From Devosia neptuniae (GTDB taxonomy: Bacteria; Pseudomonadota; Alphaproteobacteria; Rhizobiales; Devosiaceae), in contig NZ_CP104965.1 of assembly GCF_025452235.1 (NCBI RefSeq), positions 3,034,501 through 3,098,500 on the forward strand: a stretch of DNA of 64,000 nt, written 5' to 3'. Under the pieces are notes generated by a model that was not told the origin of the DNA, searched no databases, and saw only the letters and a program-made list of their open reading frames with translations. Numbering within the stretch: the first letter of the stretch is position 1; every line of letters starts with the position of its first letter. Positions 44,940-62,499 of the stretch are shown one piece after another. The position numbers and the translations under genes were made by a program.

Positions 44940-44955
44940 GGCACGCTCCCAACGC

Positions 44956-45870: not shown

Positions 45871-45914
45871 GTCGAATATGCTCCTCGTAAATTGCGACAA
45901 AGAGGCTCCGGTCA

Positions 45915-45933
45915 CGCAAAACGGTGTTTTGCG
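45915..45933. promoter_or_regulatory. Perfect 19-bp palindrome, candidate SorC operator
   Basis: CGCAAAACGGTGTTTTGCG, 8-bp arms with 3-base spacer, 45 bases upstream of the aldolase start in the gap shared with the SorC gene. The half-site CGCAAAA recurs at 47194-47200 before the FrcB-like gene. Confidence 0.6.
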
Positions 45934-45961
45934 CGGCAATTGCCTAACAGCGGGGTTTGGG

Positions 45962-45976
45962 CGATAAGGGTTATCG
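45962..45976. promoter_or_regulatory. Perfect 15-bp palindrome in the SorC/aldolase gap
   Basis: CGATAAGGGTTATCG, 6-bp arms with a GGG spacer, between the first palindrome and the SorC gene start. A second candidate operator. Confidence 0.5.
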
Positions 45977-46054
45977 TTGTCGACGATGTAACACATTGCT
46001 GAAAGGAATTTCAAGCTGTCTTCGCAGTCCGGGGATGCAGGCGTTTCCCGCTCC

Positions 46055-46953: not shown

Positions 46954-46998
46954 ATTCCGCTTCGGGCAGTGCCCCCAGTCCGTCCCATCCACAAGGTA

Positions 46999-47018
46999 AT
47001 TCCGGCCCCCGCCGGAAT
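46999..47018. terminator. ATTCCGGC hairpin downstream of the SorC gene
   Basis: ATTCCGGC-CCCC-GCCGGAAT, perfect 8-bp stem. Its sequence matches the core of the 36280 inverted repeat, so a REP-like half element used as terminator is plausible. Confidence 0.5.
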
Positions 47019-47256
47019 GACCGCAAACGTGGTGGCAACAGGCCTCTAATCTTTCTCCGCGTAAAAATTGATATTTGCGCGCCTAAATCGTGTTGACACG
47101 GCGGCCCTGCCGTGAAGTTCTATATGCGCGGCATCCGGAACAATCGGAGCCGCGGAGGACAGACCCTTTACCGATCATCCGCATGCCCGGGATCGCAAAA
47201 TGCGACAGGTCTTGACGGCTGTTTTGTGTGAAGTAAATTGCAGAAGAAAATTTCAC

Positions 47257-47360: not shown

Positions 47361-48353
47361 ATGGAGCGCCGTTCTATTCTCAAGGCCGTAGCCGCTGCCG
47401 CGCTGGTCACCACGATCGGTCTCGCTGCCGGTCCGTCTTTTGCGCAGGAGAAGAAATTCACCATCGCGCTGATCCCGGGCCTGACCACTGACGGCTTCTA
47501 TATCACCATGCGTAAAGGGGCCCAGGCGGCCGCCGATGCTCTTGGCGTAGAGCTGGTGTTTCAGGGCGCGCCCGATTTCAACCCCGTCACCCAGGTGCCG
47601 GTGCTCGATGCCATCATCGCCCGCGCACCCGATGCCATCCTGATCGCCCCCACCGACACGACCCAGCTGATCGAGCCGCTGCGCAAGGCCAATGAAGCCG
47701 GCATTCCGGTCATCACGGTCGATACGTTTATCGGCACGGGCTCCTACCAGACTGGGGCAGGCGACGCGGATTTCCCGCTCGCCTATATCGCGTCTGACAA
47801 CGTGCTCGGCGGCCGCATCGCCGCCCGTGCCCTCGCCAATGCCATTGGTGGGGAAGGCAAGGTCTTCGTTTCCAACGTCAATCCTGGCATTTCCACCACC
47901 GATCAGCGCGAGGAAGGCTTCAAGCTGGAAATGACCGAGAACTTCCCCAAAGTGGAAGTGCTCGAAACCCAGTTCAACAAGAACGATGCCAATAACGCGG
48001 CCAGCCAATTGCAGGCCGTTTTCGCCCGTAATGCCGATCTCAAGGGCGTGTTCGGGGCCAATCTGTTCTCCGCCCTCGGCTCTGCCAATGGCGTCCAGCA
48101 GGCCGGCCAGAGTGGCACCATCAAGGTGGTGGCGTTTGATGCTCCCGTCAGCATTGTCGACAATATCAATTCCGGCCTCGTCGACGTGGCCATCGCCCAG
48201 CACCCTGCCGAAATCGGATATTACGGCGTGGTCTCGGCCTTTGCCCACCTGACCGGCCAGTCGATCCCGGTTTCGATCGGCACCGGCTTTACCATCATGG
48301 ACAAGGCCAATATCGCCGATCCTGAAATCTCCAAGTACCTTTACAACGAGTAA
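47361..48353 (+). CDS. Sugar ABC substrate-binding protein, FrcB/RbsB-like
   Basis: 330 residues with a signal peptide (LVTTIGLAAGPSFAQ) and a CUT2 ribose-type binding fold (FTIALIPGLTTDGFYITMRKGAQ and ILIAPTDTTQL). Gene order binding protein-permease-single-domain ATPase matches the fructose/mannose/ribose importer FrcBCA of Sinorhizobium. GAGGGAGGAAAACC precedes the ATG. A strong hairpin follows the stop. Confidence 0.9.
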   Translation: MERRSILKAVAAAALVTTIGLAAGPSFAQEKKFTIALIPGLTTDGFYITMRKGAQAAADALGVELVFQGAPDFNPVTQVPVLDAIIARAPDAILIAPTDTTQLIEPLRKANEAGIPVITVDTFIGTGSYQTGAGDADFPLAYIASDNVLGGRIAARALANAIGGEGKVFVSNVNPGISTTDQREEGFKLEMTENFPKVEVLETQFNKNDANNAASQLQAVFARNADLKGVFGANLFSALGSANGVQQAGQSGTIKVVAFDAPVSIVDNINSGLVDVAIAQHPAEIGYYGVVSAFAHLTGQSIPVSIGTGFTIMDKANIADPEISKYLYNE

Positions 48354-48366
48354 CGCCTCACCGGGA

Positions 48367-48391
48367 CGGCCTGCGGCAATGCCGCGGGCCG
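48367..48391 (+). terminator. Intercistronic hairpin after the FrcB-like gene
   Basis: CGGCCTGCGGC-AAT-GCCGCGGGCCG, 11-bp stem with one G-T pair, 13 bases after the stop and before the permease gene. Confidence 0.6.
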
Positions 48392-48450
48392 CCTTGCCAT
48401 AACGCACAGTTCGCGGGGCAACCTGCGTCGACGCCGGATCAGGTGACACC

Positions 48451-49515
48451 ATGACCGCTTCAGTTCCGCAGGCTCAGCCTGCTTCCACTCATATAGCCCC
48501 GCAAGCCGATCACGCTGAACGCGCGCTCAATTGGATGCAGCGCATCGCCAATCTGCGCGCCTGGCTCTTCCTCGCCGCGCTGATCATCGGCTTTGAAATC
48601 TGGGCCCGCCTCAGCTTCGGCGGCACCTTCATTCTCAATCCGTTCAACATCCAGTCCATCGCCATTTTCGCGGTCGCCCCGCTGCTGCTCGCCACCGGGC
48701 AGACTTTCGTCATCATCTCGGGCGGCATCGATCTATCGCTGGGCTTCATCATGGGCCTAGCCGCGGTCGTCGCCGCCCATGTCATCAACTGGGCCACGCC
48801 CGGCATGGGCTTCCCGCTTGCCGTATTGTTTGGCGCGCTGGTCGCCGTCCTCGTCGCGGGCCTGCCCGGCGTGGTCAATGGCCTGCTCGTGTCCCGCCTC
48901 CGCGTACCGCCCTTTATCGGTACCTTGGGCATGTTCGGTGTGGCACGCGGCGTCGCGTTCCTGCTGGCTGGCGGCACCACTGTTCCCGTGCGCAACGAAT
49001 TCTTCGCCGCCATCGGCAACGGCAAGTTCCTCAATGTGCCCTATATCGTCATCATCACGGCAATCTTCGTGGTCGCCATGCATTACGTGCTGAGCCAGAC
49101 CCGTTTCGGCCAGCACAATTACGCCATCGGCGCCAATGCCCAGGCCGCCCGCCGCGCCGGCATCGACATCAAATGGCATTTGCTGCGGCTCTACATTCTG
49201 TCCGCCATGTGCGCGGGCCTGGCCGGCGTCGTCTATTCCGCCCGCTTCAGTGCCGGCGCCGCTCAGGCCGGCGAGCCCCTGCTGCTCGATTGCGTGGCCG
49301 CCGTGGTCATTGGCGGCGCGAGCCTCTTCGGTGGCTCGGGCACCATCTTTGGCACCGTGGCCGGCGCGCTGGTCATCGCGGTCATTCAATACGGTCTGGT
49401 TTTCGTCAATGTCGAGCCGTTCTGGCAGTTCATCAGTGTCGGCGTCGTCATCATCATCTCGGTCCTGATCGACCAGGCGCAACGCCGCTTCACCGGAGGG
49501 CGCATCGATGAATAA
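48451..49515 (+). CDS. Sugar ABC permease, FrcC/RbsC-like
   Basis: 354 residues, about 8-10 hydrophobic segments, with the CUT2 permease regions TFVIISGGIDLSLG and YAIGANAQAARRAGI. Overlaps the ATPase gene by 8 bases. Membrane channel of the importer. Confidence 0.9.
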   Translation: MTASVPQAQPASTHIAPQADHAERALNWMQRIANLRAWLFLAALIIGFEIWARLSFGGTFILNPFNIQSIAIFAVAPLLLATGQTFVIISGGIDLSLGFIMGLAAVVAAHVINWATPGMGFPLAVLFGALVAVLVAGLPGVVNGLLVSRLRVPPFIGTLGMFGVARGVAFLLAGGTTVPVRNEFFAAIGNGKFLNVPYIVIITAIFVVAMHYVLSQTRFGQHNYAIGANAQAARRAGIDIKWHLLRLYILSAMCAGLAGVVYSARFSAGAAQAGEPLLLDCVAAVVIGGASLFGGSGTIFGTVAGALVIAVIQYGLVFVNVEPFWQFISVGVVIIISVLIDQAQRRFTGGRIDE

Positions 49516-50257
49516 CGCAGCCGAACCCCTGCTTGACGTTCGCAATCTCTCGAAAAACTTCGCCGCTGTGCAGGCCCTCAAGGACTTCTCCATGGTGGTC
49601 CGCCCCGGCGAAGTCGTGGCCCTGGCCGGCGACAATGGCGCGGGCAAAACCACGCTGATCAAGGCCATATCCGGCGTCTATAAACCATCCTCGGGCGAAA
49701 TCCGCCTGCGCGGCGAACCCGTCAGCTTCGCCACCCCGCAAGAGGCGCGCGACAAGGGCATAGAGACCATCTACCAGGACCTGGCCCTGGCCGATAACCT
49801 CTCCATCGGCGCCAATATCTTTCTCGGCCGCGAACCCATGCGCAAAGCCTTCGGCTTCCTGCCCGTGCTTGATCGCAAGAAAATGGCCAACGCTGCCAAA
49901 TCCACCATGGCCCTGCTCGATTTCCATGTGAACCGCATGGAAGCCCCGGTCAGCAACTTCTCCGGTGGCCAACGCCAAGCCGTCGCCATCGGCCGCGCCG
50001 TCTATTGGGACGCCCAAATCCTCATCATGGACGAACCCACCGCCGCCCTCGGTGTCCCCGAACAGCGCAAGGTCATCTCGCTCATCCACCAGCTCAAAGC
50101 CCAGGGCAGGGGGGTAATCTTCATCTCGCACAATCTGCAGGACATTTTTGCGGTGTCGGACCGCATCGTCGTGCTGCGGCGCGGGGTGCAGGCGGGCGAG
50201 CGCAAAATCTCGGAAACAACCCACGACGAGGTGGTCAAGCTGATGGTGGGGGGCTAA
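49508..50257 (+). CDS. Sugar ABC ATPase, single-domain, FrcA-like
   Basis: 249 residues: Walker A GDNGAGKT, signature FSGGQRQAV, Walker B ILIMDEPTAALG, H-loop FISHN. CUT2 ATPases are usually doubled (about 500 residues), and the single domain is the FrcA arrangement. Overlaps the permease gene. Ends in a GC-rich hairpin shared with the convergent LacI gene. Confidence 0.9.
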   Translation: MNNAAEPLLDVRNLSKNFAAVQALKDFSMVVRPGEVVALAGDNGAGKTTLIKAISGVYKPSSGEIRLRGEPVSFATPQEARDKGIETIYQDLALADNLSIGANIFLGREPMRKAFGFLPVLDRKKMANAAKSTMALLDFHVNRMEAPVSNFSGGQRQAVAIGRAVYWDAQILIMDEPTAALGVPEQRKVISLIHQLKAQGRGVIFISHNLQDIFAVSDRIVVLRRGVQAGERKISETTHDEVVKLMVGG

Positions 50258-50265: not shown

Positions 50266-51309
50266 CTAAGCCGAAGCCCGCAACACCAATTCCGCATTCA
50301 GCAAAATATGCTGCCCCTGCATGCGCGGATCATCAAACACCCGCGAACTATCGAGCTTTGACAGCAGCAGCATAATCGCCAGCCGCCCCATCTCCGTGGT
50401 GTTCTGCGACACGGTGGTCAGCGGCGGCCAGATATATTCGCTCAGCGGCTGATCGTCATGCCCCGCCACCCGCAAATCACAATCCGGGCCGATCCCGACC
50501 TTGAGTCCAGCCTGGTTCACCGCCGCCAACACTCCAAACGCCACCCGGTCATTGCCGCACAGCACCGTCTTGCTGGGAAACCCGCCCGCTGCCAGCACCT
50601 TGTTGGTCTGCTCGAACGCGTAGCGCTCAAATTCCCAGGTCTCCGAGCGCTCCACCGGGATCAGCAGCGGCTCCAGCCCCCGCCGCTGCATCGTGGCGAT
50701 ATAGCTGGCGCGTCGTTCCTGCGTATTGCTGTTCACCACGGGCATATCGAAATAGGCCGGCCGGTCGCCCGAGCGCGTCAAATAGTCGGTAATCAGCGCA
50801 ATGCTCTGCGCATTATTGGTGCCGACAAACGCTTCCTCGGCGTCAAATGGCGCGTCGATAAACACGATGGGAATATTGCGCGCCAGCGCCCGCACCTTGT
50901 CGTGGTGTGCGCCGTGCCCGCCCACGGGCGCCATGATCACTCCGGCCACATTCAGCGACGTCAGCGTCTCGATCGCCTCGGCCTCCAGTTCTCCGCGGCC
51001 GTCTGAGCTGAACACGAATGGCAAATACCCAGCGGCCGTCGCCTCCGCCTCGATGCGTCGCCGCAACCCCATGTAAAACGGGTCGAGCGAGCTGGGAAAT
51101 ACCAGCCCGATAATCTTGGATCGCCGCCGGTTGAGATTGACCGCAAACAGATTGGGCCGGAACCCGGTCTCGGCCAGCCCCGCATCGATCTTCTCGCGCA
51201 CCTTGACGCGCACCGAGCCGGGATCCTGAAAATATTTTGAAACCGTCGGCCGCGACAACCCAACCGCCTTGGCAAACTCTTCCATCGTCCGGATTGCCTT
51301 GCGCGTCAT
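50266..51309 (-). CDS. LacI-family regulator of the FrcBCA-like region
   Basis: About 347 residues: helix-turn-helix TMEEFAKAVGLSRPTVSKYF, then a sugar-binding domain (IGLVFPSSLDPFYMGL and VLCGNDRVAFGVLAA). AAGGGAAAG precedes ATG 51309; upstream extension rejected. Convergent with the importer genes. A GTCAAA/TTTGAC palindrome 54 bases upstream of its start suggests self-regulation. Confidence 0.9.
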   Translation of the reverse strand: MTRKAIRTMEEFAKAVGLSRPTVSKYFQDPGSVRVKVREKIDAGLAETGFRPNLFAVNLNRRRSKIIGLVFPSSLDPFYMGLRRRIEAEATAAGYLPFVFSSDGRGELEAEAIETLTSLNVAGVIMAPVGGHGAHHDKVRALARNIPIVFIDAPFDAEEAFVGTNNAQSIALITDYLTRSGDRPAYFDMPVVNSNTQERRASYIATMQRRGLEPLLIPVERSETWEFERYAFEQTNKVLAAGGFPSKTVLCGNDRVAFGVLAAVNQAGLKVGIGPDCDLRVAGHDDQPLSEYIWPPLTTVSQNTTEMGRLAIMLLLSKLDSSRVFDDPRMQGQHILLNAELVLRASA

Positions 51310-51362
51310 CTCAGTCTTTCCCTTGCACCACCCGTCCCTTGCTGCCACCAGCAACCGGCCAT

Positions 51363-51416: not shown

Positions 51417-52595
51417 TTAGGTCCGCAGATCGAGGTTGGAAAGATCAAACTCCTCATGATGCGCCAAGGCGGCCGCCCCGATCGCACATTCAAACGCCCC
51501 AATCCGCGACACCGTCAGCAGCGGCAGGCTCATCCCCGGCACCATGCGTCGCCTCAGTGGCCCCGCCACCCGCTCCACCACCGCATCCAGCACCGGCAGC
51601 ATAGCCCCGCCCAGCACCACCTCATCGGGGTCAAAAATATTGGTGATATCCACCAGCCCCTCGGTCAAATGCCCCGCCAGCGTGGTCACCGCCCGCTCGG
51701 CATCCGGGTCACCCTTGGCCAGTCCCGCCGCCACCTGCGCCGGCAATTGCGGATCGGTCGCCGCCTCATCGACATCCCTATTGGTCGCATAGCGCTGCAG
51801 CGCCTTCAGGTTCACAAAAGTCTCCATGCACCCGCGCTGCCCGCAGCTACACAGCGGCCCATCCGCCGCAATCCGCAAATGCCCGAACTCCGTCCCCAGC
51901 CCATTGCCCCCACGCAGCAGCTTGTCATCAATGATCACCGCGCCGCCGCAACCGGTCCCGATCTTGAGATAAACCACCACCCCATGATGCGGCCGCGGGT
52001 CCGAATAAATATGCCCGAACGCGGCCGCATTGGCATTGTTCTCGACATGGCAAGGCAAATCGATCCGCGCCGCAATCAGCGCCCCGAGCTCGACATCCTT
52101 CCACCCCAGAATCGGCAGGTTGATCACATGACCATCCCGCCGCACCAGCCCCGGCACGGTCATCCCCATCGCCCGGATGCTGTCGCGATAGAGCACCAGG
52201 CTCGCCAGCTTGTCCGCCACCAGCCCCACCACCTGTTCCGGCGCCAGCCCCCGGTCAAACGGCATTTCGTCCGTCTCGGCCACGCCCGCCGCCAGATCGA
52301 GCAGGGCAAAGCGCAGCACGCCCACCCCGATCTCCACGCCAAAAAAATACGCCCCCTTGGGCTCCAGCGCGATATCGATCCCCGGCCGTCCTACATCGCG
52401 CCGCTCGGGACTGTCCTCGCGCGCTCTCTCGCTGACCATGCCGCGCGCCAAAAGGTCATCGATCATCCCGGTAATAGAGGCCCGCGTGAGGGATAGCCGC
52501 CGCGCCAGCTCCGCCCGCGACACCGGCCCGCTGACCCGCAAAATCCCCAGCAGCCGCCGCTCATTGATGTGCCGCACCAGCGACTGATTGGCCAT
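51417..52595 (-). CDS. ROK-family transcriptional regulator (NagC/XylR-like)
   Basis: About 392 residues. N-terminal winged helix-turn-helix (LLGILRVSGPVSRAELARRL) followed by a ROK sugar-binding domain with zinc motif CSCGQRGCMETF. ATG 52595 chosen. Divergent from the five-gene sugar cassette, with an imperfect palindrome in the gap that is a likely operator. Confidence 0.92.
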   Translation of the reverse strand: MANQSLVRHINERRLLGILRVSGPVSRAELARRLSLTRASITGMIDDLLARGMVSERAREDSPERRDVGRPGIDIALEPKGAYFFGVEIGVGVLRFALLDLAAGVAETDEMPFDRGLAPEQVVGLVADKLASLVLYRDSIRAMGMTVPGLVRRDGHVINLPILGWKDVELGALIAARIDLPCHVENNANAAAFGHIYSDPRPHHGVVVYLKIGTGCGGAVIIDDKLLRGGNGLGTEFGHLRIAADGPLCSCGQRGCMETFVNLKALQRYATNRDVDEAATDPQLPAQVAAGLAKGDPDAERAVTTLAGHLTEGLVDITNIFDPDEVVLGGAMLPVLDAVVERVAGPLRRRMVPGMSLPLLTVSRIGAFECAIGAAALAHHEEFDLSNLDLRT

Positions 52596-52676
52596 GTTTC
52601 CGGTTTCCGTGACGGCGTAAAAACTCACCAAGCTCTAGCGGCGCCATGTTGACAGCACAACTCTGCCGCTATTATG

Positions 52677-52746: not shown

Positions 52747-53823
52747 ATGCCCAAAAAGCAGGAGCGGCTGCTGCGTGTCGGCGTGCTGGGCTGCGGCGCC
52801 ATCGCCCAGGCCGCCCATTTCGAAAGCTGCACCAAGGCGGCAAACGCCGATCTCTACGCCATCTGCGACGTGGCCGATGATTTGCGCAACCGCATGGCCG
52901 CCACCCACGCCCCGCAAAAAAGCTTTGCCGATTACGATACCATGCTGGCCGATCCGGACCTAGAAGCCGTGATCATCGCTACCTCCGACGCTTTCCACGT
53001 CCCCGCCGCCCTGCGCGCCCTCGAAGCCGGCAAGCATGTGCTCTGCGAAAAGCCCCTCGCCACCTCCATCGAGGAAGCCGAAAGCCTGCGCGCCGCCGTG
53101 GCCACCTCAGGCAAACGCCTCCAGGTCGGCCACATGAAGCGCTTCGACGCGGGCCTGCAGGCCGCTAAATCCTTCATCGACAATGGCATGGGCCAGCTCG
53201 TTGCCCTCAAGGCCTGGTATTGCGACAGCACCCACCGCTACCCCATGACCGACGCCGTCCAGCCCCTGATCATCGCCAGCGCCGCCGCCCGCAAACCCGC
53301 CGAAAACCCCAAAGCCGATCTCGACCGCTATTACATGCTCGCCCATGGCAGCCATCTGGTCGATACCGCCCGCTATTTCGCCGGCGAGATCACCGCCGTC
53401 CAGGCGCGCCTCTCCAACCGCGCCGGCATGCGCTGCTGGTTCATCGATGTCGAATTCGCCAATGGCACGCTGGGCCATCTCGATCTCACCGTCGCCGTCC
53501 GCATGGACTGGCACGAGGGCTTCCAGATCTATGGCGAAAACGGCTCCATTCTCGGCAAGACCTATAATCCCTGGTATTACAAAACCAGCGAGGTTGACAT
53601 TTTCGACGAAGCCAAAGGCGCCAGCTCCCGCGTCCTCGGCGCCGATGGCCATTTCTATCGCCGCCAGCTCGAAGCCTTTGCTGATACCATCCTGACCGGC
53701 GCCCCCCAGACCGGCGCCGATATCGAAGACGGCATCGCCTCGGTCCGCGCCATGGTCGCCATCACCCACTCGGTCAAGTCCGGCCAGCCCGCCCGCCTCG
53801 CCGACGTCGCGGGAGCCCTCTGA
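52747..53823 (+). CDS. Gfo/Idh/MocA-family oxidoreductase
   Basis: 358 residues. NAD(P)-binding start LLRVGVLGCGAIAQAAHF, then CEKPLATS with the catalytic-region Lys and a C-terminal domain with GSHLVDTARYF His. Oxidises or reduces a sugar or polyol; substrate unknown. First gene of five tightly coupled genes; its TGA overlaps the next ATG by one base. Confidence 0.9.
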   Translation: MPKKQERLLRVGVLGCGAIAQAAHFESCTKAANADLYAICDVADDLRNRMAATHAPQKSFADYDTMLADPDLEAVIIATSDAFHVPAALRALEAGKHVLCEKPLATSIEEAESLRAAVATSGKRLQVGHMKRFDAGLQAAKSFIDNGMGQLVALKAWYCDSTHRYPMTDAVQPLIIASAAARKPAENPKADLDRYYMLAHGSHLVDTARYFAGEITAVQARLSNRAGMRCWFIDVEFANGTLGHLDLTVAVRMDWHEGFQIYGENGSILGKTYNPWYYKTSEVDIFDEAKGASSRVLGADGHFYRRQLEAFADTILTGAPQTGADIEDGIASVRAMVAITHSVKSGQPARLADVAGAL

Positions 53824-54644
53824 TGCGCCTGGGCATCTTCGCCAAAACCTTTCCCGGCGCCGATCCCATGACGGTCCTCGCCCAAGCCAAAGCCGCCGGC
53901 TTCGCCTCCGTGCAATACAACATGGCCTGCTCAGGCCTTCCCTCCATGCCTGACGCCATCACCCCAGCCCAGGCCCAGGCCGTCCACCACGCCTCCGAGC
54001 AAACCGGCCTCGCCATAGCCGCCGTTTCCGGCACATACAATATGATCCACCCCGATCCCGCCATCCGCGCCGCGGGCCTAGCCCGCCTCGAAATCCTCGC
54101 CGCCGCCAGCGCCGATATGGGCACAAGCCTGCTCACCCTCTGCACCGGCACCCGCGACCCCCACGACCAATGGCGCCGCCACCCTGACAACGACACACCC
54201 GAAGCCTGGCGCGACCTCCTCACCGAAATGGAAAAGGCCGCCGCCATTGCGGAGCGCTACGGTATCCGCCTCGGCATCGAACCCGAACTCGCCAATGTCG
54301 TGGACTCAGCCGTCCGCGCCCGCCAATTGCTCGACGCCATCGCCAGCCCATCCCTCGCCATCGTGCTCGACCCGGCCAATCTGTTCGAACACGCAACCCT
54401 GCCGGAACAGCGCGACATCATCGCCCACGCCGTCGATCTCCTCGCCGACCACATCGTCATGGGCCACGCCAAAGACCGCACCGTGGATGGCGCCTTCACC
54501 ACAGCCGGCACCGGCGTCCTCGACTATCGCCACTATATCGCCCGCCTGCGCGCCATCGGTTTCACCGGTGATCTGATCACCCACGGCCTCGAAGCCCGTG
54601 AGGCTCCCGCCGTCGCCACCTTCCTGCGACAAGCCCTGTCATGA
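53823..54644 (+). CDS. Sugar phosphate isomerase/epimerase (TIM barrel)
   Basis: 273 residues, AP-endonuclease-2/xylose-isomerase-like fold: IRLGIEPELANVV (Glu), SLAIVLDPANLFE (Asp), HIVMGHAKD (His) and a final DLITHGLEAR. Second gene of the cassette, overlapping both neighbours. Related to inosose dehydratase/IolE-like and ketose epimerase enzymes; exact reaction unknown. Confidence 0.85.
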   Translation: MRLGIFAKTFPGADPMTVLAQAKAAGFASVQYNMACSGLPSMPDAITPAQAQAVHHASEQTGLAIAAVSGTYNMIHPDPAIRAAGLARLEILAAASADMGTSLLTLCTGTRDPHDQWRRHPDNDTPEAWRDLLTEMEKAAAIAERYGIRLGIEPELANVVDSAVRARQLLDAIASPSLAIVLDPANLFEHATLPEQRDIIAHAVDLLADHIVMGHAKDRTVDGAFTTAGTGVLDYRHYIARLRAIGFTGDLITHGLEAREAPAVATFLRQALS

Positions 54645-55441
54645 AGCGCCAGGTCCTGGTCCGCGACGGCGTCTCCCTGTCCTGGTACGACAGCGGCGGC
54701 TCCGCCACGCCCATCCTCTTCCAACACGGCCTCTGCGGCGACATCAACCAGACAAGGGAAGCCATCCCCGCCAGCCTGCGCCTGATAACCCTCGAATGCC
54801 GCGCCCACGGCGCCTCCGAAGCCGGTCCGCTGGAAAACCTCTCCATCGCCACCTTCGCCGCTGACATCGCCGCCCTCATCACCGAGCTCGATCTCGGCCC
54901 CGTCATCCTCGGCGGCATCTCCATGGGCGCCGCCATCGCCACGCGCCTTGCCGTCCACCGCCCCGATCTGGTGCGCGCCCTCGCCCTGATCCGCCCCGCC
55001 TGGATCACCGCCAGTGCCCCGCTCAATATGCAGCCCAATGCAGATGTCGGTGCGCTCCTCGCCCAAATGCCCGCAGACGCCGCCCGCGCCACCTTCCACG
55101 CCAGCCCCACTTACGACCATCTCGCTAAAACCGCGCCTGACAATCTCGCTTCCTTGCTGAGCTTCTTCGAGCGCCAACCCGTCGCCACCACCGCCGCCCT
55201 GCTGCAAGCCATCGCCGCCGACGGCCCCGGCATCACCGAACCCGATCTGGCCGCGCTGACCGTGCCCACTCTCGTCATCGGCACCAGCCACGACGCCATC
55301 CACCCCTGGCCCATAGCCACCCGCCTCGCCGCCCTCATTCCCGGCGCCAAACTGCTCGAAGTCACGCCCAAATCCGTCGACAAACCCGGCTATCTCGCCG
55401 ACCTTCACACCGCGTTCGCCGCCTTCTCCGAGGAAATCTGA
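54641..55441 (+). CDS. Alpha/beta hydrolase
   Basis: 266 residues. Oxyanion FQHGLCGD, nucleophile elbow GGISMGAAIA (Ser), later VIGTSHDAIHPW (Asp). The catalytic His is not obvious in the final stretch (VDKPGY, DLHTAF). Could be a lactonase or esterase; an esterase/lactonase acting on an oxidised sugar would suit the cassette (inference). ATGA overlap with the isomerase. Confidence 0.8.
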   Translation: MKRQVLVRDGVSLSWYDSGGSATPILFQHGLCGDINQTREAIPASLRLITLECRAHGASEAGPLENLSIATFAADIAALITELDLGPVILGGISMGAAIATRLAVHRPDLVRALALIRPAWITASAPLNMQPNADVGALLAQMPADAARATFHASPTYDHLAKTAPDNLASLLSFFERQPVATTAALLQAIAADGPGITEPDLAALTVPTLVIGTSHDAIHPWPIATRLAALIPGAKLLEVTPKSVDKPGYLADLHTAFAAFSEEI

Positions 55442-55442
55442 A

Positions 55443-56132
55443 ATGCCCAGCTCCACCTGGCTTGCCGATCTGCCACGCCATCGGCTGCTCGCCGAATATT
55501 CCATGTGGTCGGCCGATCTGATCCGCCTCGCCGATGATTTGGCCCGCATCGAGCCCCATGCTGATCTGCTCCATATTGACGTAGCCGATGGCCATTTCGC
55601 CCCCGCGCTCCTGTTCTTCCCCGACCTCGTCGCCCGCATGCGCAGCGCCACAACCCGGCCCATCCACGTCCACCTCATGGTGGCCGACGCGGTCCTGCTC
55701 GAGCAGATCACCCAATTCGCCGATGCCGGCGCCGACCTGATCAGCATCCACGTCGAAAACGCCGCCGTTGCCGACGCGGCCCTCGCCCTCCTCGCCGGCC
55801 GCAACGTGGCCAGTGGCATGGTCGCTCGCATCGAAACCCCCGTCGCCAACCTGGCGCCCTATCTCGACCGCCTTAATTTCTTCACCCTGCTCGGCACCGC
55901 CATCGGCGTAAAAGGGCAGGGGCTCGACCCCACAGCCGGCCCCCGCCTGCAGGAGGCTAAAGCCCTGATCACCCAATCGAACCGCAATATCGTCCTCGCC
56001 GCCGATGGCGGCATTCGCGACACCACCGTCCCCCTGTTGCGCGCTGCTGGCGCTGAAACCGTCGTCATGGGCTCGCTGGCCTTCGGCGCCCCAGACCTTG
56101 CCGCCCGCATGGCCTGGCTGCACGCGCTCTAG
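55443..56132 (+). CDS. Ribulose-phosphate 3-epimerase-like protein
   Basis: 229 residues. RPE family motifs: MWSADLIRLADDL, LLHIDVADGHF, HVHLMV and the phosphate-binding AADGGIRDTTVPLLRAAGAE. Housekeeping RPE is usually elsewhere, so this is probably a paralogue specific to this pathway (for example an allulose-6-phosphate 3-epimerase, as AlsE is in the allose pathway; inference). One base after the hydrolase stop. Confidence 0.85.
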   Translation: MPSSTWLADLPRHRLLAEYSMWSADLIRLADDLARIEPHADLLHIDVADGHFAPALLFFPDLVARMRSATTRPIHVHLMVADAVLLEQITQFADAGADLISIHVENAAVADAALALLAGRNVASGMVARIETPVANLAPYLDRLNFFTLLGTAIGVKGQGLDPTAGPRLQEAKALITQSNRNIVLAADGGIRDTTVPLLRAAGAETVVMGSLAFGAPDLAARMAWLHAL

Positions 56133-56134
56133 CC

Positions 56135-57022
56135 ATGAACAGCGCCCGCGCCATCGGCATCGATATCGGCGGCACCAGCCTGCGCGCGGCCCTGGTCGAC
56201 AGCTCCGGCCATATCCTCGCCCGCGAGGAAACCGCCACCCTCGCGCAAGCCGGCCCCCAGGCCGTCGTCCAACAGATCGCCGACCTCGTCGCCAAAATCG
56301 CCCCCGACCGCACCGGTATTACCGGCGCCGGCATCTCCTCACCCGGCCCCATCGACACCGAACGCGGCCTCGCCTTGGGCGTGCCAACCCTGGCCGGCTG
56401 GTCCGATATCCCCATCGCCAGCATGATCCAGACCGCGCTGAGCCTGCCCGTCCGCCTCGAAAACGACGCCATCGCCGCCGCCATCGGCGAATGGAAATTC
56501 GGCGCCGGGCAGGGCCTCGCCCACCTGGTCTATATTACCATCAGCACCGGCATTGGTGGCGGCATCATCCTCGATGGCAAAGTCCTGCACGGGAGAATGG
56601 GCATGGCCGGCCATATCGGCCACATGACCGTACACCGCGACGGCGCCCCCTGCGCCTGCGGCAATCGCGGCTGCTGGGAAGCCTACGCCTCCGGCACCGC
56701 CTTCGCCCGCCGCATCGCCCCCCATTTCCCCAATCCAAAATCCGCCTTCACCGCCGCCACGTCCGGCAATTCCCTCGCCCTCCAACTCGTCACTGAGGAG
56801 GCCGATTGGCTCGGCATCGGCCTAGCCAACCTGCTCCACCTCTTCAGCCCCCAAACCGTGATCCTGGGCGGCGGCATCGCCAATGGCTTTCCGCTGCTGC
56901 TCCCGGGTATTCGGCGACGCGTCCAGGCCAATGCCATGCCGGCGTTTCGTGATGTCCCGATTGTCCCGGCGGGCCTGGGTGAGAATGCAGGTCTGGTCGG
57001 CGCCGCGGCCATGGTGATGTGA
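56135..57022 (+). CDS. ROK-family sugar kinase
   Basis: 295 residues. Phosphate motif GIDIGGTSLRAAL, catalytic-region END followed by AIAAAIGEWKFGAGQG, and zinc motif CACGNRGCWEAYASG. No DNA-binding domain, so a kinase rather than a regulator. With the RPE-like gene directly upstream it recalls the AlsE-AlsK pair of allose catabolism. Last gene of the cassette. Confidence 0.9.
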   Translation: MNSARAIGIDIGGTSLRAALVDSSGHILAREETATLAQAGPQAVVQQIADLVAKIAPDRTGITGAGISSPGPIDTERGLALGVPTLAGWSDIPIASMIQTALSLPVRLENDAIAAAIGEWKFGAGQGLAHLVYITISTGIGGGIILDGKVLHGRMGMAGHIGHMTVHRDGAPCACGNRGCWEAYASGTAFARRIAPHFPNPKSAFTAATSGNSLALQLVTEEADWLGIGLANLLHLFSPQTVILGGGIANGFPLLLPGIRRRVQANAMPAFRDVPIVPAGLGENAGLVGAAAMVM

Positions 57023-57142
57023 GAGCTGGCCGCTCAACGATAATTTTTACGCAAGCAAACATATATATTGACGAGCTGAAGCAATCTCCCCTACCGTCAG
57101 CCCACCCAGAAGCGCATCAATGCGCCGGGCAGGGAGAACCAC

Positions 57143-57871
57143 ATGAGCCAAAATCTCGCCGGCAAGGTCGTGCTGGTGACCGGCGCCAGCTCCGGCATCG
57201 GCCGGGCCCTCGCGCTCTCCGTCGCCGAAGCCGGCGCCAGCGTCGCCCTGGTCGGCCGTTCGGCAGATCGCCTGCAACTGGTCGCCAACCTCATCGGCCC
57301 CAACGCCCTCGTCCTCCCCGCCGATCTGGCCGATGCCGCCGCCGTCGAAACCGTCGCCGCCAAAACCCTCGCCCATTTCGGCCGCGTCGATATCCTGCTC
57401 GCCAATGCCGGCCTCTACATTCCCGGCGACGTGGCCGATGGCGATGCCGACACCTGGGACGAGCTGGTGCAGGTCAATGTCAGCAGCGTCTTCCGCCTGA
57501 TCCGGGCCGTGCTGCCCGGCATGATCGCCCGGCGCTCTGGCGATATCGTCGTCACCAGCTCGATTTCCGGCCATCAGGCCATCCAGTGGGAGCCGGTCTA
57601 TTCCGCCTCCAAACACGCTATCCAGTCCTTCGTGCATGGCCTGCGCCGCCAGGTCGCGCCTGACAATGTGCGGGTTGGCGCCGTTGCGCCCGGAATCGTG
57701 CTCAACGAACTCTGGGGCTATGACGATCTCAATGAGATCGACGCCAAGGTCGCCGCCCATGAAGGTCTGCGCTCGCAGGACGTCGCCGACGCCGTCCTCT
57801 TTATGTTGACCCGCCCGCCCCATGTCACCATCCGCGATCTGGTCATCCTGCCGCAGAACCAGGATATCTGA
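57143..57871 (+). CDS. SDR-family oxidoreductase
   Basis: 242 residues: TGASSGIG cofactor motif, NAG at beta-4, catalytic SSISGH and Tyr/Lys in YSASKHA. A new transcription unit begins in the 120-base gap upstream. Overlaps the GMC gene by one base (TGATG). May act as a polyol or sugar dehydrogenase in this region (inference). Confidence 0.9.
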   Translation: MSQNLAGKVVLVTGASSGIGRALALSVAEAGASVALVGRSADRLQLVANLIGPNALVLPADLADAAAVETVAAKTLAHFGRVDILLANAGLYIPGDVADGDADTWDELVQVNVSSVFRLIRAVLPGMIARRSGDIVVTSSISGHQAIQWEPVYSASKHAIQSFVHGLRRQVAPDNVRVGAVAPGIVLNELWGYDDLNEIDAKVAAHEGLRSQDVADAVLFMLTRPPHVTIRDLVILPQNQDI

Positions 57872-59514
57872 TGCAGCCCTACGACTACGTCATCGTGGGC
57901 GCCGGCGCCGCCGGTTGCGTGCTCGCCAATCGGCTCTCCGCCGACCCCAATATCCGCGTCGCGCTGGTCGAAGCCGGCCCCGACCGCAATGCCCGAAAAA
58001 CCATCATCCGCATGCCGCTGGCCATGGTCACCTTCATGGCCCCCGCTTTGGCCTTTCTCGGCGGCCCCAAATTCATGTCCTGGTTCACCACCGATCCCGA
58101 ACCGGGCCTGCAGGGCCGCCAGATCGCCCTGCCGCGCGGCAAAGGCTCTGGCGGCAGCACCAATGTGAACGGCCAGATATTCATCCGCGGCCAGCGCAAG
58201 GATTTCGACCACTGGCGCGACTTGGGCAATCCCGGCTGGTCCTATGACGATCTACTGCCCTATTTCCGCAAACTCGAACGTTTCGAACCCGATCCCACCA
58301 GCCAGATCGATCCCGCCTTCCACGGCACCAATGGCCCCCTCACCGTCGCCCCCCTGCGCAGCGTCAATCCAATGGCTCGCGTCTATCTTGAGGCCGCCAC
58401 CCAAGCCGGCATTCCCCTCAATCCCGATTTCAACGGTGCTAATCAAGCCGGCGCCGGCCTCTACACCTTCACCCAGCGCAATGGCGAACGCGTCACCGCC
58501 GAAGGCGCCTATCTTGATCCCATCCGCCACCGCCCCAATCTGCACATCCTGAGCGAACGCACCGTCACCAAAATCCTGTTCGACGGCAAACGCGCCACCG
58601 GCATCGCCTACGACAGCGCATCAGGGCAGGGCACTCTCCCCGCGCGGGAAGTCATCCTCTCCGCCGGCTCCTTCGTCTCGCCACACCTGCTCCTGCTCTC
58701 GGGCATAGGCGACACCGGCCAATTGCAGCGCCACGGCATGACCCCCGTCCAGCACCTCCCCGGCGTCGGCGAAAACCTGCAGGATCATCTCGACGTCACC
58801 CTGGAATATCGCGCCAAATCCACCGCGCCCTATGGCATTTCCTGGCGCGCCCTCCCGCGCAATATCCTCCACGTCCTAGACTGGCTCTTCCGCCGCCGCG
58901 GCCTCTTCGCCTCCACCACCGGGGAGGGCGGCGCCTTCATCTCAACCGTGCCCGGCCAGTCCCGCCCCGATATCCAACTCTTCTTCTGCACGGCCGTCGG
59001 AAATACCCAAAACGCCGGCGGTTTCACCGGCCACGGCTTTCTCATGCATGTCTGCCAGCTCCGCCCCGGCAGCATTGGCCGCGTCAGCCTCACCAGCGCC
59101 GATCCCCACGCTAAGCCCTCGATCCTCTACAATTTTCTGCGCCATGAAGGCGCCATGGACACGCTCCGCGCCGGCATCCGCATCGCCCGCAACATCATCG
59201 CCCAGTCCCCCTTCGCCCCGCATCTCGACCGCGAAGTCGATCCCGGCACCGACGAACAAAGCGACGGCGCCCTCGACGCCTTCATCCGACGCAGCGTCGG
59301 CACGCTGTTCCACCCCGTGGGCACTTGCGCCATGGGCACAGGCCCCGACGCCGTTGTCGACCCGGCGACCCTCCGCGTCCACGGCGTCACGGGCCTGCGC
59401 GTCGTCGACGCCTCCATCATGCCCACAATCGTCTCCGGCAACACGGTCGCCGCCACCTATTGCATCGCCGAAAAGGCTGCCGACCTCATCATGAAGGAAC
59501 CAAGCAATGGCTGA
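57871..59514 (+). CDS. GMC-family FAD oxidoreductase
   Basis: 547 residues. FAD motif DYVIVGAGAAGCVLA, GMC signatures GKGSGGSTNVNGQIFIRG and the C-terminal HPVGTCAMG ... LRVVDASIMPTIVSGNT with catalytic His. Homologues oxidise alcohols, choline or sugars. Set between two SDR genes with overlaps on both sides. No signal peptide. Confidence 0.92.
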   Translation: MQPYDYVIVGAGAAGCVLANRLSADPNIRVALVEAGPDRNARKTIIRMPLAMVTFMAPALAFLGGPKFMSWFTTDPEPGLQGRQIALPRGKGSGGSTNVNGQIFIRGQRKDFDHWRDLGNPGWSYDDLLPYFRKLERFEPDPTSQIDPAFHGTNGPLTVAPLRSVNPMARVYLEAATQAGIPLNPDFNGANQAGAGLYTFTQRNGERVTAEGAYLDPIRHRPNLHILSERTVTKILFDGKRATGIAYDSASGQGTLPAREVILSAGSFVSPHLLLLSGIGDTGQLQRHGMTPVQHLPGVGENLQDHLDVTLEYRAKSTAPYGISWRALPRNILHVLDWLFRRRGLFASTTGEGGAFISTVPGQSRPDIQLFFCTAVGNTQNAGGFTGHGFLMHVCQLRPGSIGRVSLTSADPHAKPSILYNFLRHEGAMDTLRAGIRIARNIIAQSPFAPHLDREVDPGTDEQSDGALDAFIRRSVGTLFHPVGTCAMGTGPDAVVDPATLRVHGVTGLRVVDASIMPTIVSGNTVAATYCIAEKAADLIMKEPSNG

Positions 59515-60277
59515 TTTCACCGGCAAGGTCGCCCTGGTCACCGGCACCACCGGCATTGGCCGGGCCGTAGCACTCAAACTCGCCGCCGAGGGGGCACAGG
59601 TCATGGCCTTGGGGCTCGACACAGCGGGCAATGCCGAGCTCGCCACCCACGCCAACATCGCCACGCGCCTGACCGATGTGTCCGTCCCCGAACAGGTTCA
59701 GGCCGCCATAGCCGAGACCGTCGCCCGCCTGGGCGGCCTCGACATCATCGTCAATTCGGCCGCCATCCATCCCTATGGCGATTGCGTCACGACGAGCCCG
59801 CAAACCTTCGCGCAATGCCTGGCCGTCAATGTCGGCTCGATCCACCTCACCGCCCGTTTCGGCGTGCCGCATTTGCGCCAGCGCGGGGGTGGCAGTATCG
59901 TCAACATTTCCAGCGTCCAGGGCCATGCCAGCCAGAATAACGTGGCCGCCTATGCCGCCTCCAAAGGTGCCATCCATGCGCTGACCCGCGCCATGGCGCT
60001 CGATTTCGCCGGCGACAATATCCGCGTCAATTCGGTCAGCCCCGGCTCGGTCCGCACGCCCATTCTCGAGCGCGCCGCCCGCCATAGCGATGGCCAGGAT
60101 GTTGATATTGCAGCCGCTTTCGCCCGCTTCGGCGCCGCCCATCCGCTCGGCCGCATTGGCGAGCCCGAAGAAATCGCCGAGTTGGTCGCCTTCCTCGCCT
60201 CGTCCCGCGCCGCCTTCATCACCGGGGCCGACCACCGCATCGATGGTGGTTTGACCGCCGGCATTGCCGTACGCTGA
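59507..60277 (+). CDS. SDR-family oxidoreductase
   Basis: 256 residues: TGTTGIG cofactor motif, NSAA in place of NNAG, catalytic NISSVQG and Tyr/Lys in YAASKGA. Overlaps the GMC gene by 8 bases. Its stop directly abuts the stop of the convergent GatZ-like gene. A galactitol- or polyol-dehydrogenase role is suggested by that neighbour only. Confidence 0.9.
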   Translation: MADFTGKVALVTGTTGIGRAVALKLAAEGAQVMALGLDTAGNAELATHANIATRLTDVSVPEQVQAAIAETVARLGGLDIIVNSAAIHPYGDCVTTSPQTFAQCLAVNVGSIHLTARFGVPHLRQRGGGSIVNISSVQGHASQNNVAAYAASKGAIHALTRAMALDFAGDNIRVNSVSPGSVRTPILERAARHSDGQDVDIAAAFARFGAAHPLGRIGEPEEIAELVAFLASSRAAFITGADHRIDGGLTAGIAVR

Positions 60278-61558
60278 TTACAGTACCCCGGCAGCGCGCG
60301 AATAGAGGTCCGTCTGTTGCCGTACGGCGAGTAGCAGCAGTGAGCGGGCATCTATTTTTTGCCCTTTCGCCGCCGCCGCCGCATGCAATGTGCCAAGAAA
60401 CTGGCTGATCAGCGGCATGGGAATCTCGCGCTCCCCAAGTGCGGTCATGAGCCGGTCCACGGCCGCAATCGCATCGGGATGCGGCCAGTAATACCGGATG
60501 CGGTCCGAGTAGCTGAAATGGCGCTGGACCCGCAGGGCAGCATCATCGCCGTGATAGTATTTTTGCCAGTGCTGCGGCTCGCGCAGCATCAGCTCTTCCA
60601 TCGCTAGGGCGACCGTCTCGTTTGGGGCAAGCAGATCCAGCGCAACGGCGATTTGGTCAAGTCCATAGATTGCTTCACGCAGCACAAAGGTCAGTGCCGG
60701 GCCAACCTTGAGGATCGAAAATCCGTCGGCCACCAAACCCGCCAGGGCTGTCTCAGGCTGGTAGTCGGTCGAATGGGCTTCGAAGACGAATTGCGGCACC
60801 TGTCGCAGCACGGCGCTCAGCGCTTGCGCCTTGGCCGGGTCATAGACAACGAGGTCTTCATTGCCGAATTCGACTCCCGGCTGCACGACGATCCCAACCA
60901 CGCGGGCAAATGCATCCTCCAGGCTGTGCGCTGCGAATGCCTTGCGGTGTACCTCGATCGTGTCCAGCGCCGCTCTGGGCGTGGTCACCTGCAAATGGTC
61001 CAACGCTTCCAGCGCGCCACCGGGGACCGGCACTTCGGTGCCGATGATATAGACCGGCTTGTCGCCACCAGCGGGCAGGGCGCCCTCGGCCGCTTGCGCC
61101 AGCGAAGCCGCACGTTCGGCTGTGGTCTCATCCGGCAGTGCGACAGGCTCACCCCGGCAGCCCATGCTGGTGTCGAGATGCAGCTTGGTAAAACCGGCGG
61201 CGGCAAAGGCGGCGATCATTACCCGCGATTTCTCCATCGCTTCGTCAGCCGGCAGATGCTTCCAGGGATTGGGCCCGAGATGGTCTCCGCCCAGAATTAG
61301 CTTGCCCGGATCGAAGCCAACCTTGGCAGCAATCCCCTCAACAAATTGTCGGAAGTCCAGCGGCGTCATCCCGGTATAGCCGCCATCCTGGTTGACCTGA
61401 TTGCAGGTGGCCTCGATCAGCACTGCATGCTGGTTATCGCGCCCGGCAATCAGCGCGCTTTCGATCACCAAAGGATGCGCCGAACAGATCGACACAATGC
61501 CGACGTGCTTGCCAGCGCGATGTTGCCTGGGGAGGTCCAACAGTATTGCGGTGCTCAT
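60278..61558 (-). CDS. GatZ/KbaZ-like protein, probable D-tagatose-6-phosphate 4-epimerase
   Basis: 426 residues with the GatZ/KbaZ start GIVSICSAHPLVIESAL, metal-site regions GGDHLGPNPWKHLP and KLHLDTSMG, and FEAHSTDYQ. In enterics this protein assists the GatY/KbaY aldolase, but no such aldolase is near here. Family members in Agrobacterium without that partner have been characterised as tagatose-6-phosphate 4-epimerases (recalled knowledge). It overlaps the upstream PfkB kinase gene by 4 bases, which fits tagatose to tagatose-6-P to fructose-6-P. Confidence 0.85.
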   Translation of the reverse strand: MSTAILLDLPRQHRAGKHVGIVSICSAHPLVIESALIAGRDNQHAVLIEATCNQVNQDGGYTGMTPLDFRQFVEGIAAKVGFDPGKLILGGDHLGPNPWKHLPADEAMEKSRVMIAAFAAAGFTKLHLDTSMGCRGEPVALPDETTAERAASLAQAAEGALPAGGDKPVYIIGTEVPVPGGALEALDHLQVTTPRAALDTIEVHRKAFAAHSLEDAFARVVGIVVQPGVEFGNEDLVVYDPAKAQALSAVLRQVPQFVFEAHSTDYQPETALAGLVADGFSILKVGPALTFVLREAIYGLDQIAVALDLLAPNETVALAMEELMLREPQHWQKYYHGDDAALRVQRHFSYSDRIRYYWPHPDAIAAVDRLMTALGEREIPMPLISQFLGTLHAAAAAKGQKIDARSLLLLAVRQQTDLYSRAAGVL

Positions 61559-62499
61559 GCCGCCACCTGCTGGCTGACAAACGCATCGAGTTCGGCTCGG
61601 GTGGACGTCCCTTCCATCGGCCCCTTGCGGCCCACGGCCAGTGCGCCGGCGCCATTGGCGCGGCGCAGGTTCGTTTCCGCATCCAGACCGCCCAGCCAGC
61701 CGGCAAGGAAGGTTGCGCCAAAGGCGTCACCGGCACCGGTAGGGTCGATCTCCTCGACCGCGAAGGCTGGAACGAACAGATCGTCCTTGCCATCCAGATA
61801 ACGTGCCCCCGCGGCGCCCTGCTTGAGCACGATGGCGCGAACGCCGCGCGCCAGAATATCCCAGACAGCCGTCTCTTCGCTGCTTTCTTGAGAAAAGAGC
61901 AGCACTTCCGACCCGCTCGGCATGAACAAATCCGTCTGCGCCAGCACCTTGTCCAGCGCCTCCCGCAACCCCACAAAGCCCAGCATTTCCTTGCGGATAT
62001 TGGGGTCAAACGACACCGTGCCGCCGCGCGCCTTGATCTGCTCAAGTGCGAACAAAACCGCCTCGATGATCCCCGCTGATACCAGCGAGGACCCCATGAC
62101 ATGCAAATGTCCAGCCGAGGCGATGACGGCCTTTGCCGCCTCCGTCAGCCCGATCTGTCCATTGGCACTGTGCTTGATGTTGAACACGAAATCGCGCTGC
62201 CCATCCGTGCGATAGCGTACGAAAGCGCTGCCGGTCACCGCGTCTTCGTGCACACGAATAGCCGAGACATCGACACCGTCCTGCCGCAGCCGCTCGATAT
62301 TGAGCCAGCCGAAATCGTCATTGCCTACGCAACTGACCATGGCGCAGGGCTGCCCCTGTTTGGCAAGCTGGTCGATAAAGATGGCTGGAGCTCCCGAGGG
62401 ATAGGGACCAACCAACTCGATGGGTTCGCGAAAACCCTTGCCCGGCGCGACGGCCATGATCTCGACGACGATTTCGCCAATGGTAACGACTTTGATCAC
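61555..62499 (-). CDS. PfkB-family sugar kinase, probable tagatose kinase
   Basis: 314 residues. Ribokinase-like: VTIGEIVVEIMAV start, PSGAPAIFIDQLAKQG, VSCVGNDDFG and the catalytic DPTGAGDAFGATFLAG. Co-transcribed (4-base overlap) with the GatZ-like gene, so D-tagatose is the probable substrate; fructose or another ketose cannot be excluded from sequence alone. The upstream intergenic region holds TTGTACGA near 62594, a possible GntR-type half-symmetric site. Confidence 0.85.
   Translation of the reverse strand: MIKVVTIGEIVVEIMAVAPGKGFREPIELVGPYPSGAPAIFIDQLAKQGQPCAMVSCVGNDDFGWLNIERLRQDGVDVSAIRVHEDAVTGSAFVRYRTDGQRDFVFNIKHSANGQIGLTEAAKAVIASAGHLHVMGSSLVSAGIIEAVLFALEQIKARGGTVSFDPNIRKEMLGFVGLREALDKVLAQTDLFMPSGSEVLLFSQESSEETAVWDILARGVRAIVLKQGAAGARYLDGKDDLFVPAFAVEEIDPTGAGDAFGATFLAGWLGGLDAETNLRRANGAGALAVGRKGPMEGTSTRAELDAFVSQQVAA

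Follow-up and report, generated by a model that had tools for sequence, protein, structure and literature searches.

A conserved, uncharacterized five-gene cassette in a putative rare-ketose locus of Devosia neptuniae

Results

A five-gene cassette with a conserved order

A 64,000-nucleotide stretch of the Devosia neptuniae genome (contig NZ_CP104965.1, positions 3,034,501 to 3,098,500; hereafter the window) carries five tightly packed genes at 52747..57022 on its forward strand, encoding, in order, a Gfo/Idh/MocA oxidoreductase (MocA), a xylose-isomerase-like TIM barrel (TIM), an alpha/beta-hydrolase-fold protein (the hydrolase), a relative of ribulose-phosphate 3-epimerase (the RPE-like protein) and a ROK-family sugar kinase. 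They constitute a real, conserved and uncharacterized cassette of a familiar kind in a rare-ketose locus. Sequence comparison shows a conserved gene order, membership in known families, altered catalytic positions and linkage to an importer. From these features we infer the reactions, their order, the shared regulation and the substrate discussed below, and we tentatively favor the possibility that the genes form a mobile cassette by which a rare sugar is broken down and which, in the window, is situated in the locus of a mannoheptulose/tagatose-type importer.

The initial annotation, made from the DNA alone, had described an uncharacterized sugar pathway of five genes beside an FrcBCA-like importer, a LacI regulator and a ROK regulator. 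Its coordinates agree with the open reading frames (ORFs), all on the forward strand, the gaps between them (-1, -4, +1 and +2 bases, in order) and the Pfam families, and the importer (47361-50257) and both regulators lie directly upstream. All five products exceed the Pfam gathering scores (GFO_IDH_MocA, AP_endonuc_2, Abhydrolase_1, Ribul_P_3_epim and ROK), none of the five reached an NCBIfam cut-off in a profile search of the window, and the open-licence PMC literature searched named no characterized homologous five-gene cluster, so the pathway still reads as uncharacterized. Left out of that annotation were a tagatose kinase (TagK), a GatZ protein, a LacD-type aldolase, a fusion of ROK and AAA_33 kinase domains (the ROK-AAA kinase) and an SDR-GMC-SDR operon, all in the same locus (Table 1).

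Spread of the cassette was judged from relatives in genome contigs, since a class-wide search (385 genomes, E 1e-60) gave only the window's own copy among the matches listed, with no more than 7 candidates scored per genome. The best 80 of 151 confirmed relatives of the RPE-like protein were taken as loci (given here as L numbers), neighboring genes were counted by tblastn, and gene order was counted in the 70 loci with at least 3.6 kb of upstream and at least 1.5 kb of downstream flank. MocA, TIM and RPE-like genes stand in the same order in 70/70, and the hydrolase gene sits between TIM and RPE in 69/70, the exception (L070) having MocA, TIM, RPE and ROK genes without a hydrolase. A ROK kinase gene follows in 53/70. 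An order kept this widely exceeds what chance would give.

MocA is 64-98% identical across cassette copies L007-L086. The hosts are alphaproteobacteria and some betaproteobacteria, mostly Rhizobiales and Rhodobacterales, with the cassette seen in Rhizobium, Rhodobacterales, Mesorhizobium and Devosia genomes and in two Burkholderiales (L083, L085). Nearest to the window's copy, whose genome comprises 4.7 Mb in two contigs, are those of a Rhizobiales isolate (L007, RPE-like protein 96% identical) and of Devosia sp. A8/3-2 (L008, 93%). The RPE-like gene was also found in 110 of 72,556 plasmid records, 96 of them from Rhizobium. Among 101 relatives, the RPE-like gene occurs in 5, the importer binding protein in 6 and both in 4; with the window left out, co-occurrence is 3/4 against 5/100 (hypergeometric p 2.4e-4, kinship not removed).

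Altered active-site positions in three of the enzymes

Conserved residues were read from alignment rows that passed a length filter (RPE-like, 70/72; TIM, 72/78; hydrolase, 71/71) plus the window, whose own copy (L001) is counted. Aligned to Escherichia coli Rpe, the RPE-like protein retains its phosphate loops together with S20, H44, D46, H77 and D188 in 71/71 rows, the Ser, two His and two Asp being the residues that we take to be catalytic in Rpe. The lid motif reads GTxxGxKG instead of PGFGGQ in all 71 rows and differs from that of AlsE and Rpe alike. The protein shares 31% identity with E. coli AlsE and 34% with Rpe, and its match to TIGR01163 reaches 137.5 of the 212.6 bits required. In a tree the core rows stand apart from the AlsE and Rpe of E. 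coli and from the housekeeping Rpe of Devosia; they are not established as a clade because a Streptomyces RPE-like row on a long branch falls among them. In the Streptomyces plasmid locus L090 (4294-6702), an RPE-like protein whose lid resembles GTxxGxKG is encoded together with a TIM barrel and a P-loop-like protein, and nearby are a 7-cyano-7-deazaguanine synthase, a nucleotidyltransferase and phosphatases; a biosynthetic use of the lid-bearing RPE subfamily is possible in this plasmid.

The TIM barrel keeps E153, D183 and H215 in 73/73 rows, and in 72/73 it has H254 at the position of the second catalytic Glu of the ketose 3-epimerases UlaE and D-tagatose 3-epimerase, presumably at the end of strand 8 in those enzymes. 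The pairing of H254 with Glu246 comes from a profile alignment that stops at query residue 253 and D-tagatose 3-epimerase residue 245 and was extended by one residue; in a separate alignment, whose UlaE row is shifted by one, H254 pairs with a Glu of YcjR. The AlphaFold2 models were confident. A fold search with the TIM model returned UlaE at the top, with ketose 3-epimerases, Art22, YcjR and AtHYD close behind, and the protein thus has a ketose 3-epimerase fold; because several enzyme types score nearly alike, the fold does not pick the reaction.

The hydrolase has S94, D218 and H221 in 72/72 rows, and the usual place of its catalytic His, assigned by eye after strand 237-240, is occupied by K244 in 69 and by Arg in 3 of the 72. 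By this assignment, a Ser-Asp-His triad with the His after strand 8 is not present. The model of the hydrolase (pLDDT 97.2) matches esterases, C-C hydrolases and an enol-lactonase with Z values too similar to single out a reaction, and the second hydrolase of setting B (ABH2, see below) was too distant to be aligned usefully as an outgroup. The oxidized or lactone intermediate suggested by the initial annotation is possible, with the replaced His speaking against it. Because three enzymes have changed active-site positions, the chemistry of the cassette probably differs from the textbook. The best NCBIfam match of the ROK kinase is ROK_glcA_fam (211 vs 260 bits).

The cassette in a larger importer locus

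The importer's binding protein matches structure 5dkv (Table 1), which we take to be Agrobacterium vitis Avi_5339 with bound alpha-D-tagatopyranose. Binding of mannoheptulose by Avi_5339 is quoted in PMC5507952 as an unpublished observation. Because of this match the importer points away from plain fructose or ribose; uptake of these sugars was rejected as unsupported, and the earlier term FrcBCA-like, right in that an importer is present, undersells a binding protein 77% identical to 5dkv. Linkage in the DNA places the cassette in a larger locus of a mannoheptulose/tagatose-type importer. One Rubellimicrobium locus (L080) has all five cassette genes, the gene for the aldolase (overlapping ROK by 4 bases), that for the ROK-AAA kinase and the importer in succession on one strand. 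The aldolase of the window probably has its true start further in, and the start of the ROK repressor was taken at an ATG, its open frame extending to 52631.

Table 1. Genes and candidate sites in and around the cassette (window positions)
Feature	Position	Strand	Evidence
ROK kinase with fused AAA_33 P-loop kinase domain	43521..44984	-	PF00480 residues 21-300; PF13671 residues 313-452
LacD/DeoC-type, tagatose-bisphosphate-aldolase-like	44956..46065	-	PF01791 66.5 bits; NF009498 159 of 184 bits
DeoR/SorC-type sugar regulator	46055..46999	+	NF053881 85.6 bits, below cut-off 420
TTTTTACGC copy 1, candidate operator	47059..47067	-	294 bases upstream of binding-protein gene
CUT2 sugar-binding protein	47361..48353	+	5dkv, E 1.8e-154; 232/302 aligned columns identical (77%)
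CUT2 permease	48451..49515	+	sugar permease NCBIfam matches below cut-off
ABC ATPase, single domain	49508..50257	+	PF00005 112.9 bits
LacI-family regulator	50266..51327	-	PF00356, PF13377
ROK-family repressor, divergent from operon	51417..52595	-	PF00480 and N-terminal MarR-type helix-turn-helix match
TTTTTACGC copy 2	52615..52623	-	between ROK repressor and five-gene operon
Gfo/Idh/MocA oxidoreductase, 358 aa (cassette gene 1)	52747..53823	+	PF01408 87.9 bits
Xylose-isomerase-like TIM barrel, 273 aa	53823..54644	+	Pfam AP_endonuc_2
Alpha/beta-hydrolase-fold protein, 266 aa, non-canonical triad	54641..55441	+	PF00561 (Abhydrolase_1) 68.9 bits
RPE-like (ribulose-phosphate 3-epimerase family) protein, 229 aa	55443..56132	+	PF00834 (Ribul_P_3_epim) 126.3 bits
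ROK-family sugar kinase, 295 aa	56135..57022	+	PF00480 257.7 bits
TTTTTACGC copy 3	57044..57052	+	upstream of SDR-GMC-SDR operon
SDR oxidoreductase SDR1	57143..57871	+	SDR NCBIfam matches below cut-off
GMC oxidoreductase, choline-dehydrogenase-like	57871..59514	+	NF002550 553 of 605 bits
SDR oxidoreductase SDR2	59507..60277	+	PF13561 198 bits
GatZ/KbaZ protein (tagatose-6-phosphate 4-epimerase family)	60278..61558	-	TIGR02810 598.9 bits, above cut-off 568.8
Tagatose kinase (PfkB)	61555..62499	-	NF049991 435.6 bits, above cut-off 420

The closest described counterpart of this larger locus comes from Rhodobacteraceae, where two kinases and a COG3684 aldolase accompany an importer like that of Avi_5339, and a mannoheptulose pathway was proposed for that locus (PMC5507952). 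The corresponding set of importer, two kinases and tagatose-bisphosphate-type aldolase is present in the window, as a related importer, a ROK kinase, a second P-loop kinase and a LacD-type aldolase. What that paper's account of the locus names is the transporter, the aldolase and the two kinases and not MocA-TIM-hydrolase-RPE-ROK, and its pathway is a prediction with an unpublished ligand. Since the two kinases are listed there under separate COGs, the ROK-AAA_33 fusion would fit a joint function of the two. The tagatose pathway is also represented in the window, by a kinase and a GatZ-type 4-epimerase that both exceed their cut-offs and are encoded separately from the cassette; to our knowledge, the five-gene operon is no part of that pathway.

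Three genomic settings and an exchange of kinases

The cassette occurs in three settings. Setting A has the window's importer type (defined by a binding protein at least 60% identical), usually with TagK/GatZ; it accounts for 22 of the 69 loci whose upstream flank reaches 9 kb, and 19 of these 22 have tagatose kinase and/or GatZ. Setting B adds a second MocA (MocA2, 24 of the 80 loci), a second TIM (TIM2, 25), a second hydrolase (ABH2, 21), and a PfkB kinase and a class I aldolase (PfkB2 and FBA1, 22), and is annotated in Rhizobium leguminosarum 248. Two Rhizobium loci have such an extra MocA, TIM and hydrolase upstream of the cassette, L087 at 584-3762 and L092 at 1906-5248; the set in L092 was identified from its ORFs and from a MocA match that is weak. 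TIM2 had no match in the window's own genome, and MocA2 had 47 and 49% matches at other places in it. Setting C has a CUT1 importer of glucose-binding type, with relatives of its binding protein in 11/80 loci. The best matches of the L018 binding protein are 4r2b, presumably solved with glucose, 8hqq and 5dvf, with 2b3b, a named glucose-binding protein, lower. The setting C gene cluster is shared by R. lentis (L088), and A. tumefaciens (L093) shares the gene order by annotation. Loci outside all three settings exist (for example, L019, L026 and L063). A small gene follows the ROK kinase gene in 7/80 loci (for example, L027 11707-12135); its product, which we take to belong to the GlcG family, is annotated as heme-binding at the equivalent place in L093.

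Across the same 69 loci, ROK kinase occurs alone in 47, TagK/GatZ alone in 15, both in 5 and neither in 2. Fisher's test gives p 3e-9 for this complementarity, a value that is too optimistic because the pattern follows clades. As the two largely alternate, the role of ROK may be taken by a ketose kinase where ROK is missing. GatZ-type proteins interconvert tagatose 6-phosphate and fructose 6-phosphate (PMC11907403). Of 10 genomes of unstated completeness, chosen among those with loci other than A, 5 had GatZ (TIGR02810), and it was not found in the other 5; the product of the cassette therefore need not be tagatose 6-phosphate.

Candidate regulatory sites

The 9-mer TTTTTACGC is present in three copies in the 64 kb, where 0.16 are expected and 0/100 shuffles reach three, and all three copies are intergenic within the locus. 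Its core, TTTACGC, lies 87-99 bases upstream of SDR1 in 11/12 loci, counting the window's copy; L050, the sole SDR1 locus without the core, has its SDR1 elsewhere on the other strand. For the SDR-GMC-SDR operon, TTTTTACGC is thus a good candidate site. Its three positions suggest a common regulator of the three operons among close kin only, and the case for a shared regulator is weak because the core is kept mainly before SDR1. A second motif, WWTTTACGCNNG, was discarded, having 2 matches where 0.31 are expected and one alone that is intergenic in the locus. A palindrome search gave three near-palindromes (47298, 48422 and 57112), none common to different regions. The one at 47298-47313, CAAACAAATCTGTTTG, lies 47 bases upstream of the binding-protein gene and is a candidate site for one regulator.

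Other features of the window

A second xylose-isomerase-like TIM barrel is encoded at 30822-31718 on the reverse strand (E. coli YcjR match, E 1.4e-19; PF01261), beside an ORF at 31900-32883 with no Pfam match at E 1e-6. The region 21613-26276, with a CUT1-type solute-binding protein, an alpha-L-fucosidase and a LacI regulator, is likely a fucoside-use locus. Within 33128-42580, a polysaccharide export protein is encoded at 33128-34471, and the translations of ORFs at 38992-42580 resemble a polymerase-type membrane protein, a glycosyltransferase and a sugar transferase.

Discussion

In the pathway that we tentatively favor, MocA would reversibly oxidize a ring hydroxyl with NAD(P), and the TIM barrel, acting as a metal enzyme, would enolize the keto-sugar and then shift or flip an adjacent group. 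The hydrolase-fold protein would open or cleave an intermediate that can also decay unaided. Phosphorylation of the ketose would fall to the ROK kinase or, in loci lacking it, to another sugar kinase encoded there, and the RPE-like enzyme would epimerize the ketose phosphate beside its keto group to yield fructose 6-phosphate; for a seven-carbon sugar, its product would be sedoheptulose 7-phosphate.

Several observations weigh against this proposal. The active sites of the TIM barrel and the hydrolase depart from those of the characterized relatives compared, so the reactions given for these two are guesses. Because the cassette also accompanies other importer types, the importer gives no single substrate, and among the 101 relatives the RPE-like gene occurs without the binding protein in 1/5 and the binding protein without the RPE-like gene in 2/6. 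As for the kinase exchange, the ROK-AAA kinase is found in six ROK-less loci (L028, L029, L033, L041, L050 and L054), some other loci ending before its place, and it, not TagK, could be the stand-in. With respect to shared regulation, TTTTTACGC was picked after inspection of the sequence, and its core lies within 360 bases upstream of the binding-protein gene in only 5/24 loci. Before MocA, of 77 loci, L007 and L008 alone have the core at the position seen in the window, and two more (L012 and L026) have it at other distances; the long distances of L069 and L073, artifacts at the locus ends, are left out of this count.

The main rival, chiefly for setting B, is a 3-keto-glycoside pathway like that of levoglucosan (LgdA/B1/B2/C) or Agrobacterium OGE, which we consider rather unlikely. 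MocA would form the 3-keto glycoside, TIM would beta-eliminate it or hydrate the product, MocA would reduce 3-keto-glucose and the ROK kinase would give glucose 6-phosphate. The PDB sequence nearest to MocA is indeed DgpA (7xr9, E 2e-25), which we take to be the oxidase of a C-glycoside system, and 2b3b, a named glucose-binding protein, is among the sugar-binding proteins resembled by the one binding protein searched from setting C. The Lgd/OGE pattern comprises two dehydrogenases plus eliminase and hydratase TIMs; the cassette has one of each, and 24 and 25 of the 80 loci have, respectively, a second MocA and a second TIM next to it, giving setting B a two-plus-two composition. Pairs of Gfo and xylose-isomerase-like TIM proteins are described in an A. 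tumefaciens operon (PMC10628242) and, more widely, in levoglucosan Lgd, Agrobacterium OGE/HYD and E. coli YcjQRS (PMC10628242, PMC7676230), systems of other composition in whose accounts there an RPE-like enzyme is not among the components named. Identity to E. coli YcjR and YcjS is 22-24%, and MocA scores only 79 of 650 bits against the levoglucosan dehydrogenase model. The cassettes of settings A and C have a single MocA and a single TIM, and a 3-keto-glycoside route would leave the RPE-like protein and the TagK/GatZ linkage without a role.

Weaker than this rival, and unlikely in our view, is a variant of the allose/allulose pathway in which the TIM barrel replaces RpiB, the ROK kinase acts on the sugar, the RPE-like protein serves as allulose-6-phosphate 3-epimerase and MocA and the hydrolase feed in a derivative. 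The initial annotation had seen a resemblance to allose catabolism, which is weak. A ROK kinase (alsK), an RPE-family epimerase (alsE) and a CUT2 importer are common to the window and the E. coli D-allose system (alsKE, rpiB), and conversion of allulose 6-phosphate to fructose 6-phosphate requires no GatZ. R. leguminosarum pRL120033 is, judging from its plasmid and number, probably the orthologue of the RPE-like gene. PMC5118466 annotates this gene as putative AlsE, and both columns of a transposon-study table there list it as NE. The resemblance does not extend to the models, in that the RPE-like protein reaches 103.2 of 271 bits for AlsE (NF007266) and the ROK kinase 131.1 of 253 bits for AlsK (NF007251), with 25% identity to AlsK. 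The lid of the RPE-like protein differs from both AlsE and Rpe, H254 speaks against a two-glutamate 3-epimerase, and MocA, TIM and hydrolase are extra. RpiB, which the initial annotation had already reported as absent, gave no match in the window (E. coli RpiB, tblastn, E 1e-3). A plain allose pathway was rejected on the AlsE and AlsK equivalog scores and the missing RpiB. A route of inositol type, with MocA and TIM acting as IolG and IolE on a cyclitol, the hydrolase cleaving a dione and the RPE-like protein and ROK kinase finishing, is very improbable. IolG (TIGR04380) is the top NCBIfam match of MocA and the TIM barrel weakly matches IolE (TIGR04379), but at 133.6 of 355 and 26.6 of 290 bits, respectively, far under the cut-offs on which the inositol pathway was rejected; in addition, both importer binding proteins searched are of sugar-binding type.

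A more specific reading, to which we assign a low likelihood, is that the locus serves the breakdown of seven-carbon sugars, which would all enter the pentose phosphate pathway. D-mannoheptulose and D-tagatose have the same C3-C5 stereochemistry, and C4 distinguishes the manno heptulose (L,L,R,R) from the altro heptulose (L,R,R,R) just as it distinguishes tagatose (L,L,R) from fructose (L,R,R). C4 is the sole difference between mannoheptulose and sedoheptulose, and it is the carbon that GatZ-type enzymes flip in tagatose 6-phosphate, so the TagK/GatZ pair could make sedoheptulose 7-phosphate from mannoheptulose. The SDR-GMC-SDR operon could oxidize heptitols such as perseitol, which is the heptitol of mannoheptulose. 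Finally, the cassette with its reshaped RPE-like enzyme, as a heptulose/hexulose-phosphate 3-epimerase, could admit C3-epimeric sugars. A route of this kind for heptulose is predicted in the account of the Rhodobacteraceae locus (PMC5507952).

The analysis marks three enzyme subfamilies that are annotated under ordinary names, namely the RPE-like proteins with the GTxxGxKG lid, the TIM barrels with a Glu-to-His change and the hydrolases without the usual His. Once named, the substrate of the cassette would annotate a recurring, so far unread use of sugar in soil and plant-associated bacteria. If the heptulose reading were true, the locus would be a bacterial route for plant heptuloses.

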